This document shows positions 35,571-39,432 of a stretch of DNA of 64,000 nucleotides, in pieces; the first letter of the stretch is position 1, and the number at the start of each line of letters is the position of its first letter. The DNA is taken from the NCBI GenBank assembly GCA_944323875.1, contig CALUUH010000002.1:1-64000 (forward strand), in the 5' to 3' direction. Under the pieces are notes generated by a model, which did not search any database, was not told the DNA's origin, and worked only from the letters and a program-made list of their open reading frames with translations. A program made the position numbers and the translations under genes. The DNA is from Candidatus Gastranaerophilales bacterium (GTDB taxonomy: Bacteria; Cyanobacteriota; Vampirovibrionia; Gastranaerophilales; Gastranaerophilaceae).

Positions 35571-36113
35571 ATGACAACAGTTGAACCAATCAGGAATATT
35601 GAAAACATAAGAAAAATAGAAGCCTATTTTGCAAAAAACAACACCAGAGATTTAGTGCTCTTTGTTATGGGCATTAATTGCGGACTTAGAATTTCTGATA
35701 TAGTTGCTCTGAATGTAGGTGATGTAAAAGACAAATCTTATATACAAATTATAGAAAAGAAAACGGGTAAGTTCAAAAAATTCCCGATAAATTCAAAACT
35801 TAAGCCTATGCTTAACGAATTTACAAGAGAGAAACATGCAAATGAACCGCTTTTTACAACCATATTTAAAAACCGGATGAATAGATTTGCTGCATACTAT
35901 ATTCTTAAAACTGCCTGTAATACAATTGGATTAGAAGAAAAAGTCGGTACGCATACAATGCGAAAAACTTTCGGGTATCACCATTATAAAAAATTCAAGG
36001 ATGTTGCTATACTGCAAAAAATCTTCAATCATTCAAGCCCGTCAATAACACTAAAATATATTGGAATAGAGCAAGATCAGATTGATGAAAGTTACGCAAA
36101 CTTTATCTTATAG
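35571..36113 (+). CDS. Compact tyrosine recombinase adjacent to invertible segment
   Basis: The 180-residue integrase-family protein consists of little more than the catalytic domain. The full active-site set is visible: Arg40 ('NCGLRISDIVALNVGDV'), a lysine in the beta-hairpin ('IIEKKTGKFKKFPI'), 'HTMRKTFGYHHYKK' (His128, Arg131), 'IFNHSSP' (His154) and the nucleophile Tyr163 ('TLKYIGIEQDQ'). Size and lack of an N-terminal arm-binding domain resemble FimB/FimE-type invertases. A strong AAAAGGAGAATG precedes the ATG. It ends 44 bp before a 17-bp inverted repeat whose partner lies just before a glycan operon, which strongly suggests that this DNA segment is its substrate. Confidence 0.9.
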   Translation: MTTVEPIRNIENIRKIEAYFAKNNTRDLVLFVMGINCGLRISDIVALNVGDVKDKSYIQIIEKKTGKFKKFPINSKLKPMLNEFTREKHANEPLFTTIFKNRMNRFAAYYILKTACNTIGLEEKVGTHTMRKTFGYHHYKKFKDVAILQKIFNHSSPSITLKYIGIEQDQIDESYANFIL

Positions 36114-36157
36114 CCTCAATATCTATCAAATAAACAAATCTTTCTAACATCACAATA

Positions 36158-36174
36158 TAGCCAATTTGTTAAGA
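36158..36174 (+). repeat. Left inverted repeat of putative invertible segment
   Basis: TAGCCAATTTGTTAAGA, 17 bp, perfectly complementary to 36310-36326 on the other strand. It lies 44 bp after the recombinase stop codon. Confidence 0.85.
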
Positions 36175-36309
36175 TAAAAATAATTTCAACAGCAATATAT
36201 TATCACAAAGAAGAAACAGCAAAACATTAATGTTATAAAATATTAAGTTTTTCACAAAAATATTAAAATTCCTGTTCTAAAATGCACTGAACACGGGATT
36301 TTTTTATTT
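36175..36309. promoter_or_regulatory. 135-bp putative invertible promoter segment
   Basis: The segment between the two 17-bp repeats contains no gene. In the present orientation it carries a terminator-like hairpin facing the glycan operon (36271-36305). On the opposite strand a GATAATAT -10-like element (around 36205-36212) with a T/G-rich upstream region could be a promoter facing the recombinase. Inversion would turn that promoter toward the operon. The orientation-dependent model is inference; the promoter match is weak. Confidence 0.55.
36271..36305 (+). terminator. Terminator-like hairpin inside invertible segment
   Basis: CCTGTTC (36271-36277) pairs with GAACACGG (36289-36296) as a 7-bp stem with one bulged base, followed by a run of seven T residues. 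In this orientation it would stop transcripts from the recombinase before they reach the glycan operon. Confidence 0.6.
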
Positions 36310-36326
36310 TCTTAACAAATTGGCTA
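36310..36326 (-). repeat. Right inverted repeat of putative invertible segment
   Basis: The reverse complement is TAGCCAATTTGTTAAGA, identical to 36158-36174. It ends 36 bp before the glycosyltransferase start. Confidence 0.85.
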
Positions 36327-36362
36327 AAAAGTTAAGAGATTTATTACAAGGATAGAAAAAAT

Positions 36363-37301
36363 ATGAATATTGATATGTTGAAGTCTGAAATTGATACCTA
36401 TGCACAAATGGAAAATTTAACTAAACCATTAATCTCAATAATAGTTCCGGCATATAATGTTGAGGATTACATAGGTATCTGCCTTTTGTCATTAATAAAA
36501 CAGACATTACGCGATATTGAAATTATTGTCATCAATGACGGGTCTACGGATAAAACAGGTGAGATAATAAACTTGTTTACGCAGGATAAAAGGATAAAAG
36601 TCATAACACAAACAAATCAAGGTCCTTCTATGGCAAGAAATGCCGGTTTAGATGCTGCGCAAGGAGATTATATAGGTTTTGTTGATTCAGATGACTGGGT
36701 TGATGAAAATTATTATGAAACATTATACGCGGCCGTAACTAAATATGATGCAGATATTGGAATTACGAGTATACTAAAACATAAAAAAAATCGTAATAAA
36801 TACAATGTAATTCATAAACGAGAAAAATATGTAACCCGCTTAAAAGATAAAATAAAAATTTGTGAAGATAAAAAACACTCAATTTTTTATGTGTGGAACA
36901 GACTGTATAAAAGAAATGTGATAGAAAAAAATAAATTGAGATTTCCTGCCGGCAGAATATGGGAGGATGTGACATTCAGCACAAGAGCTATATTTTATGC
37001 TAACGGTATAGTATCAGTTCCCCAAGTTAAATATCATTACATTGAAAGAGAGCATTCTATTGTCAAATCAAAAGATATCAAAGAGAAAAAAATAAGAGAT
37101 AAAGAATGGGTTTATACCGATATGATAAAATTTGCCCGCCGGAATAATATCATTTTGCCTGACAGGCTAAACTATGTAAAAAGTTACTGGAAAACACCGT
37201 TTTTTAAGGTTTACACAGGCAAATACAAAAATAAAATAACGCTGTTTGGCTTGATACCACTGCTTATATACACAAAAAATGAAGGAGAAAATGATGACTA
37301 A
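36363..37301 (+). CDS. GT2-family glycosyltransferase
   Basis: The 312-residue cytoplasmic or membrane-peripheral enzyme has a GT-A fold. 'LISIIVPAYNVEDYIGICLLSLI' opens the nucleotide-binding domain, 'IIVINDGSTDKT' carries the first acidic motif, and 'GDYIGFVDSDDWVDENYYETLY' holds the metal-binding DxD. Acceptor residues follow around 'GRIWEDVTFSTRAIFYA' (the ED motif). The C-terminal 60 residues are basic. It is the first gene of the operon with LicD, TagD-like and DUF115/GT42-like genes, so it probably builds a surface glycan. The inverted-repeat segment just upstream may set its expression on or off. Confidence 0.9.
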   Translation: MNIDMLKSEIDTYAQMENLTKPLISIIVPAYNVEDYIGICLLSLIKQTLRDIEIIVINDGSTDKTGEIINLFTQDKRIKVITQTNQGPSMARNAGLDAAQGDYIGFVDSDDWVDENYYETLYAAVTKYDADIGITSILKHKKNRNKYNVIHKREKYVTRLKDKIKICEDKKHSIFYVWNRLYKRNVIEKNKLRFPAGRIWEDVTFSTRAIFYANGIVSVPQVKYHYIEREHSIVKSKDIKEKKIRDKEWVYTDMIKFARRNNIILPDRLNYVKSYWKTPFFKVYTGKYKNKITLFGLIPLLIYTKNEGENDD

Positions 37302-38235
37302 TCTATTGAAAAATATTTTTTCTGTAAGTAATTTGTCAGAACAGCGTATTTTGATTACGATATTAGGTTTTAAAATAAAGACACCTAAAGCATATTATGC
37401 ACATGCCAGACGCCACAACCCGTATTTAAAATATAAAAAAGAAAACGTTGACATAACCAAACTTCCGCCTGCAAACGGACAAGCACGTGAAGTCCAGCTT
37501 GCAGGATTATATCTTTTAGACGAATTGGATTACACCTGCAAACAATTAAACATTCAATATTGGCTGGATTTTGGGGCATTATTAGGTGCTGTCCGGCATA
37601 AAGGTTTTATCCCGTGGGATGATGATATTGATATCGGAATAATGAGAAAAGATCATGATACCTTGATAGAATATTTTGATTCTGTTAAACGTGACAAAGA
37701 TTTATACTTACATTTCAACTACAACAAGGCTAAAAGAAGTGTATTATTGAAACTTCGGCATAAAAAATCATCCCATTTATTTTTGGATATATTCCCTTAT
37801 GATTTTTTAAATAAAAAGCTGCTGCCCAAAGAACAAATATCTTTCACTAAAACTTGTAAACAAAACCGAAAAAAATTTATTAAAAAAATCAAATATACGA
37901 CGGAAACTGAACTATATGAAAGTTATAAAGTTTTAAGAAGCGATTTTAACAAAGCGGATTGTCAAAATACAGATGTAATATGGGGGTATGAGTTCGGACA
38001 TAACTGGCCCAAATGGGTACACTCTTACGATACCATTTTTCCGCTTCAACAAATTGAATTTGAAGGTAAAATGTACCCTTGTATAAATGATTACGAAAAA
38101 TATCTCAAAGATGTATACGGAAATTATTTTGCATACCCTAAAAAAATATCATTAGGACATATTATGTATCTCAATTTTCCTCCCGAAGAAAAAGAATTGA
38201 TACAGGAATTATCAGAGAAAGCGAGGGCTAAGTGA
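37294..38235 (+). CDS. LicD-family phosphotransferase
   Basis: The 313-residue protein has the LicD/fukutin signature 'YWLDFGALLGAVRHKGFIPWDDDIDIGI' (DFG..LG..R and DDDID) and a later 'LDIFPYDFL'. LicD enzymes move a phospho-alcohol such as phosphocholine from a CDP carrier to a sugar. The next gene encodes a TagD-type cytidylyltransferase, which would make the CDP donor. AAGGAG six bases before the ATG at 37294 favours it over the frame start at 37279. It overlaps the GT2 gene by 8 bp. The N-terminal ~60 residues are not part of the core. Confidence 0.88.
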   Translation: MTNLLKNIFSVSNLSEQRILITILGFKIKTPKAYYAHARRHNPYLKYKKENVDITKLPPANGQAREVQLAGLYLLDELDYTCKQLNIQYWLDFGALLGAVRHKGFIPWDDDIDIGIMRKDHDTLIEYFDSVKRDKDLYLHFNYNKAKRSVLLKLRHKKSSHLFLDIFPYDFLNKKLLPKEQISFTKTCKQNRKKFIKKIKYTTETELYESYKVLRSDFNKADCQNTDVIWGYEFGHNWPKWVHSYDTIFPLQQIEFEGKMYPCINDYEKYLKDVYGNYFAYPKKISLGHIMYLNFPPEEKELIQELSEKARAK

Positions 38236-38630
38236 AAAGAGTGATAACATACGGAACTTTTGATGTTTTGCATTACGGACATATTAACCTTTTAAAAAGA
38301 GCCAGAGCCTTTGGGGATTACCTGATAGTGGCGCTGTCAACAGATGAATTTAACGCAGTCAAAAACAAAAAGTCATATTATACTTACGAACAAAGAAAAT
38401 CTATTTTAGAAGGCTGCAGATATGTAGATCTGGTTATTCCGGAAAATAATTGGGAGCAGAAAATTCAAGACATACAGAAATATCAGGCAGATATTTTTGT
38501 AATGGGAGATGATTGGCTGGGAAAATTTGATTTTCTCAAAGACTATTGCGAAGTTATCTATCTTTCGAGGACTCCAGATGTTTCAAGTACACAAACAAAG
38601 GAATACTTAAATGAAAAATTTACTAAATAA
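38232..38630 (+). CDS. tagD: Glycerol-3-phosphate cytidylyltransferase-like (TagD type)
   Basis: The 132-residue nucleotidyltransferase has 'TYGTFDVLHYGHINLLKRA' (HxGH), 'VALSTDEFNAVKNKKSYYTYEQR', 'YVDLVIPENNWEQK', 'DIFVMGDDW' and the 'SRTPDVSSTQTK' loop (RTxGxST-like). These match TagD/GCT, which makes CDP-glycerol from CTP and glycerol-3-phosphate; related proteins use other phospho-alcohols. It starts with GTG overlapping the licD stop (GTGA), so it is translationally coupled. In this setting it should supply the CDP-activated group for LicD. Confidence 0.88.
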   Translation: MKRVITYGTFDVLHYGHINLLKRARAFGDYLIVALSTDEFNAVKNKKSYYTYEQRKSILEGCRYVDLVIPENNWEQKIQDIQKYQADIFVMGDDWLGKFDFLKDYCEVIYLSRTPDVSSTQTKEYLNEKFTK

Positions 38631-39432
38631 GTTCATAAAAATTACTTACACCAACAAACACACTATTTACCAAATCTCTAAAATAAAAATCAAAGTTAAG
38701 AGAAAAATAAACATGCGTGTGACACTGGATGATTTGAGGGCATATTCTCTTGCATCAAAATTTCACCCTAATTTGGAAAAATATCGAGGAATTTATACCG
38801 GCAAATCGGTAGTCGTGGTCGGCGGCGGCGCAACGGTAAAGTATTATAAAAACCCTATGCCTGATGCGGTACACATAGGCTTAAATAGGGCCTATGAACT
38901 AAAACATATTAATTTTGATTATCTGTTTGCACAGGATAATTTTCCAAATAAAGAAAATATTGAAGAATTTATAAACTATAGACCTGATACGTGTATAAAA
39001 TTTCTGGGGTTACATTCACGCAACATGAATTTTAGAATCAGACCGTCAACAATAGCAAGGATAAAGAACAAAGAAATTTATGTTCTAAATTGCAGACGTC
39101 CTAAAAAGACTTTTTATCCTATTGATATCACCGCAGAGCCTTTCGTTTATTTTTGCGGTACTATTTTTGCTGTCTTGCAATTTCTATTATTAACTAATGC
39201 CGAAAAAATCTATCTTGTCGGTTTTGATTGCAACGTGAGCCATGCCTTTACTTCAAATCTCAAAGAACAGGATCTAAGAATACAATACCCTTACTGGTAT
39301 CAATTTGCCCAATACAAAAATATGTATTTTGAAAATACACGTATAATTTCTGTAAATCCTGTTGCTTTAAAGGGGCTGTTTAAAGATATTTACACTCAAA
39401 ACTATATTGACGAACATCCGGAGTTAAGTTAA
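38611..39432 (+). CDS. DUF115/GT42-like Rossmann-fold protein of glycan operon
   Basis: The 273-residue protein has a nucleotide-binding-like opening 'GKSVVVVGGGATVKYYKN', then 'VHIGLNRAYELKHINFDYLFAQD', and a central 'PFVYFCGTIFAVLQFLLLTNAEKIYLVGFDCNVSHAF' segment. It ends near 'TRIISVNPVALKGLFK'. The layout, with a GxG start and a late 'E.I.L.G.D' strand, recalls DUF115/MAF-type and GT42 sialyltransferase-like enzymes that work on surface glycans. I cannot assign a substrate. It overlaps tagD by 20 bp and is the last gene of the operon. Confidence 0.55.
   Translation: MKNLLNKFIKITYTNKHTIYQISKIKIKVKRKINMRVTLDDLRAYSLASKFHPNLEKYRGIYTGKSVVVVGGGATVKYYKNPMPDAVHIGLNRAYELKHINFDYLFAQDNFPNKENIEEFINYRPDTCIKFLGLHSRNMNFRIRPSTIARIKNKEIYVLNCRRPKKTFYPIDITAEPFVYFCGTIFAVLQFLLLTNAEKIYLVGFDCNVSHAFTSNLKEQDLRIQYPYWYQFAQYKNMYFENTRIISVNPVALKGLFKDIYTQNYIDEHPELS

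Follow-up and report, generated by a model that had tools for sequence, protein, structure and literature searches.

The locus beginning at position 35571 of the window (the whole 64-kb stretch of DNA that was analysed) is very probably a self-contained ON/OFF switch, in which inversion of a promoter controls a GT2-LicD-TagD operon. According to the mechanism that we propose, the recombinase encoded at 35571-36113 would act on a pair of 28-bp sites in opposite orientation (36147-36174 and 36310-36337), strand crossing would take place in or close to the central TAGCCA, and the ~160 bp between the sites would invert. In the OFF state the promoter would read toward the 3' end of the recombinase gene, with a hairpin standing between the recombinase and the operon. 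In the ON state, reached by inversion, transcription from it would pass the right site and enter an overlapping four-gene operon. The likely outcome would be a phase-variable glycerol-phosphate modification of a surface glycan. As for the biochemical steps, namely catalysis by the window recombinase, transcription, and the chemistry and display of the glycan, we infer them from the DNA.

The recombinase and its putative sites

The proposed invertase (180 aa, plus strand) is a tyrosine recombinase reduced to the catalytic domain. It matches Pfam Phage_integrase (PF00589) over residues 15-164 with 77.9 bits against a cut-off of 27.1, and R40, K64/K67, H128, R131, H154 and Y163 are at least 97% conserved among 80 relatives. 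The product of 35571-36113 has, in other words, the R-K-H-R-H-Y catalytic domain by which tyrosine site-specific recombinases are recognized, and the first-pass annotation, which had reported a recombinase with all catalytic residues, is borne out by the ORF, the Pfam match and the conservation. Its best sequence matches in the PDB are the C-terminal parts of XerA/XerC-like enzymes. Membership in the curated families had to be rejected both for FimB and FimE (25.8 and 29.6 bits versus cut-offs of 221 and 222) and for XerC/XerD/XerA (64-83 bits versus cut-offs of 220-335, the alignment being to C-terminal parts only). Among named families the best match is to PHROG 216, which comprises short recombinases from prophages of Firmicutes and from satellite phages of Streptococcus; its profile covers residues 1-178 at E 5.2e-58. 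A tblastn search with the recombinase returned 195 phage records; among the matches listed, identity is 47-50% and the sources are mostly Streptococcus phages and satellite phages. These enzymes have the same length as the window recombinase and are the nearest found outside the order. Judged by sequence, it is to them and not to FimB/FimE that the recombinase appears closest. Thus, the earlier label 'fim-like' fits the principle of the switch but not the protein, which falls outside the FimB/FimE family.

The left 17-bp repeat TAGCCAATTTGTTAAGA (36158-36174) has its exact complement at 36310-36326, with 135 bp in between, just as the first-pass annotation had described. The whole window contains no second perfect inverted repeat that is 14 bp or longer and has a 40-400 bp gap. 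None of 2000 dinucleotide shuffles of 35571-36363 reached the score of 17 that this pair has (the best shuffle scored 15), in agreement with the earlier judgement that such a pair is very unlikely by chance. The 135-bp segment that it encloses (36175-36309) is predicted to invert, its equivalents being inverted between relatives. Each recombination site is ~28 bp long and consists of a 7-bp arm, a 14-bp spacer and another 7-bp arm. The left site (36147-36174) reads ACATCAC-AATATAGCCAATTT-GTTAAGA with the central 6 bp TAGCCA at 36158-36163, and the right site (36310-36337) reads TCTTAAC-AAATTGGCTAAAAA-GTTAAGA with the central 6 bp TGGCTA at 36321-36326. This AC-N14-GT anatomy was derived from relatives; our site script mis-centred some of the sites, and the left site of the window was placed by hand. 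Across loci the sites take the form ...AC-N14-GT... with a short asymmetric centre, e.g. TAGCCA, and their centres often lie ~160-167 bp apart.

The right site is a full TCTTAAC-N14-GTTAAGA dyad, and compared with TCTTAAC the left outer arm ACATCAC of the window is degenerate. Given this poor match, the family switch might be real and the window copy nevertheless locked OFF or flipping only seldom. Decayed relatives do exist: L018 and L046 are without repeats, and in L014, whose segment aligns in the opposite orientation to that of L015, an in-frame stop interrupts the recombinase, the left site has been lost and the promoter faces the gene, a combination that fits loss of switching in this single MAG. 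However, the window recombinase is intact, the inner 17 bp are the same in both sites, and L025 and L049, which have strong repeats, also carry a left outer arm unlike the right one. We therefore regard a locked or sluggish window copy as unlikely, though the least unlikely of the alternatives.

An active switch worked by its neighbouring recombinase is also to be weighed against inversion in trans by some other recombinase (e.g. XerC/D), with the adjoining gene a mere bystander. Two further tyrosine recombinase genes with longer reading frames (~300 aa) are indeed present on the same contig, but their products are just 23% identical to the window recombinase. Furthermore, in many species the repeats track the clade of the window recombinase and occupy a fixed place after its stop codon. 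The arms vary with the recombinase clade as well, the types being TCTTAAC, TTACAA, TCACATT and GATAC; similarity of recombinases and similarity of site arms are correlated weakly, in the expected direction (Mantel r 0.18, p 0.012, n=32). Action in trans is thus improbable. A half-site-like element of the ACATAACATTTTTT type is found at 36225-36248 of the window, upstream of the promoter inside the segment, and has equivalents in many relatives. Its covariation with the site arm of its own locus was not significant (p 0.17); it is a possible place of recombinase binding near the promoter.

The promoter segment and its orientation among relatives

Inside the segment, at 36196-36209 on the minus strand, lies an extended -10 promoter, TTTGTGATAATATA, an exact consensus match that points away from the operon. 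This shared element is of the extended -10 type (TGTGATAAT) and is without a clear -35, and a sigma-70 consensus scan missed it. With up to 2 mismatches allowed, it occurs downstream of the recombinase in 30 relatives (69 having the full 450 bp) compared with 1 of 76 stretches of upstream control DNA. In an enlarged set of 102, it is directed toward the gene in 13 cases and away from it in 17. The segment also contains, on the plus strand at 36271-36305, a terminator-like hairpin (CCTGTTC / GAACACGGG) with a T-rich run (-11.3 kcal/mol, z -4.2), which in the present orientation would presumably block transcription running on from the recombinase gene. A consensus terminator scan, whose loop limit is 8, did not list this hairpin, and nothing like it was seen by eye in the few relatives inspected, so it is not obviously common to relatives. 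The assembled state of the switch would be OFF, because TTTGTGATAATATA on the minus strand faces away from the operon and because the first operon gene, starting 25 bp past the right site, leaves scant room for another promoter. Altogether, the locus presents inverted repeats around an intergenic promoter segment that adjoins a recombinase, the arrangement by which promoter inversion is recognized.

The first-pass annotation had suggested comparing the orientation of the segment among strains. We made this comparison among relatives and found both orientations. In L079 and L080 the upstream flanks are 99.7% and the downstream flanks 100% identical, and the 129-bp segment agrees at 129 of 129 positions only after reverse-complementing; L081 equals L080 in this respect. 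L079 and L080 are short-read MAGs, and for that pair taken alone misassembly is possible. More diverged pairs in which the segment aligns on the opposite strand are L037/L063, L015/L075, L059/L079 and L019/L075. Contigs end within 400 bp after the recombinase more often than they should (11 seen versus 2.2 expected; 4 on the upstream side), a pile-up that fits mixed orientations in the reads, which would cause it. In a genome set with one genome per species, no strain showed the window's own segment inverted, and the viral collection yielded no copy of it; it is from the relatives that we infer inversion of the window copy. The earlier reading of the locus as an inversion switch therefore stands: segments are flipped between relatives with identical flanks, the repeats track the recombinase clade, and the promoter stays inside the segment whichever way round it lies.

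Targets and spread in Gastranaerophilales

The operon under the switch lies on the plus strand and begins with a GT2 glycosyltransferase gene (36363-37301), followed by genes for a LicD-family phosphotransferase (37279-38235; PF04991) and a glycerol-3-phosphate cytidylyltransferase, TagD (38232-38630; TIGR01518, 195.7 bits versus a cut-off of 165.4). This order had been given correctly before; to it we add a fourth and last gene (38611-39432), which overlaps the TagD gene and encodes a 273-aa protein without a Pfam match. Since LicD and an above-cut-off glycerol-3-phosphate cytidylyltransferase occur together in this four-gene operon, its gene content suggests glycerol-phosphate decoration of a glycan. 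According to a simple script working on ORFs, the gene after the recombinase is co-directional in 65 of 67 loci. The 57 first downstream proteins (56 from relatives, plus the GT2 of the window) include 11 GT2 glycosyltransferases, alongside Stealth proteins, GT1 enzymes, sugar epimerases and FdtA; a GerE-type HTH match is present in 5 of the 57 and a Phage_integrase match in 7. A nested array occurs in L072 (6001-12436), where recombinase 1 and switch 1 are followed by an HTH gene, a second recombinase, switch 2 and a large PMP-type-repeat protein, so that switch 1 may control the second recombinase. L071 has a similar gene order, as does L077 by ORF sizes.

The 80 recombinase relatives retrieved by contig search come nearly all from Gastranaerophilales MAGs where the organism is named. 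Of 383 species of the order that were sampled, 250 contain a recombinase match at E 1e-20 or better, and at genus level the figure is 37 of 52, a tally that refers to presence of the recombinase and not of the switch, and the maximum number of copies per genome is at least nine. Across a sample of the whole phylum, nearly every match belongs to Gastranaerophilales, and three other genomes match weakly. L065 (CAMZGT010000025.1), whose record bears the title uncultured Acinetobacter, has a recombinase of the Gastranaerophilales type and is probably a misnamed bin. Within 450 bp after the recombinase stop, a repeat pair with a score of at least 13 and a gap of 85-330 bp was found in 44 of 68 loci, compared with 1 of 75 upstream regions and 1 of 68 shuffles. 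At scores of at least 15 and at least 17, the numbers were 38 and 31 of 68, and at both thresholds upstream (0/75) and shuffled (0/68) DNA gave none. Nineteen relatives are without a repeat pair at the scan threshold; some of these are three-site loci and some appear decayed. The distant subfamily (~54-60% identity) is mostly without repeats, L007 being the one exception, which would confine the switch to one part of the recombinase family. A subfamily at 57-60% identity (L221-L236), likewise without downstream repeats, is present in many Gastranaerophilales genera. In L015, L016, L075, L032, L042 and L037, there are apparently three sites delimiting two adjoining ~150-bp segments, with the promoter in the second.

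This distribution also bears on two readings other than a regulatory switch, namely that the locus is a remnant of phage or satellite integration, or that it is an integron-like attC structure. The PHROG 216 match (47-50% identity among the matches listed) speaks for the former and weak NCBIfam matches of the recombinase to integron integrases for the latter. Nonetheless, phage genes and a cassette array are absent beside the recombinase in the window stretch inspected, the recombinase recurs in those 250 of 383 species, the loci examined have a conserved promoter and co-directional targets, and between relatives the segments are inverted, not excised. We reject both the integron and the mobile-element readings as highly improbable, and for the family they are contradicted by the L079/L080 inversion. 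Short repeats do arise easily in AT-rich DNA, but a chance pair or a hairpin feature without recombination has next to no standing against the shuffles, the recurrence of the repeats across the family and the inversions seen in relatives.

For a promoter switch paired with its own recombinase, a broader evolutionary scenario can be considered. With some reservation, we lean toward the view that Gastranaerophilales have domesticated a short phage-type recombinase as a modular multi-copy switch. Such switches would have sites of their own specificity and share a single type of promoter; they would stand ahead of many surface loci and in places be built into nested arrays (as in L072). The system would also offer a clear example of how a phage-type recombinase has been put to new use as a local regulator. 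Members of this order, which is related to the cyanobacteria, are frequent in the guts of animals and mostly uncultured; about two-thirds of the sampled species have the recombinase, often with a promoter switch before glycosyltransferase or other surface genes. This implies that a clonal population is probably a mixture of surface types, with consequences for phage resistance, host recognition and strain tracking. Inversion of the switches may also explain some of the contig breaks in MAGs.

Known inversion systems and phage-borne relatives

In the fim system of E. coli, short tyrosine recombinases without an N-terminal domain (FimB/FimE) invert a promoter segment, fimS, flanked by short inverted repeats. 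The window locus resembles it in having a short tyrosine recombinase next to a promoter segment between inverted repeats, but it has a single recombinase, its sites are 28 bp long and contain 17-bp repeats, its segment measures ~135 bp instead of ~300 bp, and its target is a glycan operon. The capsule switches of Bacteroidota (Mpi, Tsr) are invertible promoters ahead of surface-glycan operons, again in gut commensals. Mpi, however, belongs to the serine recombinases and acts on many promoters lying far away, whereas here each copy has its own neighbouring tyrosine recombinase. Inversion by a tyrosine recombinase before surface-structure genes has been described for RecV of Clostridioides difficile (PMC5903667, PMC5386303). 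RecV acts on more than one switch, while in the present system recombinase and switch are paired locally and the arms differ between recombinase clades. The available text on the cps1 inverton of Akkermansia, also a gut commensal, describes an invertible element regulating a capsule locus; the repeat motif it gives, CGGATT..AATCCG, is unlike the window sites, and that text does not name the invertase (PMC13343947). On phase variation or invertible elements in Gastranaerophilales or Melainabacteria, a literature search found no report, although an earlier mention in the main inverton survey (doi 10.1126/science.aau5238) is possible. Consequently, promoter inversion as a principle is known, and the order-wide module built on a phage-type recombinase is apparently undescribed.

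A group of prophage contigs has a TAAC-N14-GTTA dyad just upstream of a related recombinase, with the same geometry as in the switch sites. These PHROG 216 prophage copies differ from the switch loci in that, in those examined, the downstream repeat pair is absent. In L134, L137, L143 and L150, the dyad, TCTAATGTAAC-N14-GTTACATTAGA, and accompanying half-sites are located ~30-160 bp upstream of the prophage recombinase. The upstream dyad might possibly serve the phage enzyme as a recombination or autoregulatory site. Three IMG/VR contigs classified as viral (L121, L124 and L128) encode a recombinase with downstream repeats; either these are switches carried by prophages, or the contigs are chromosomal DNA wrongly classed as viral.
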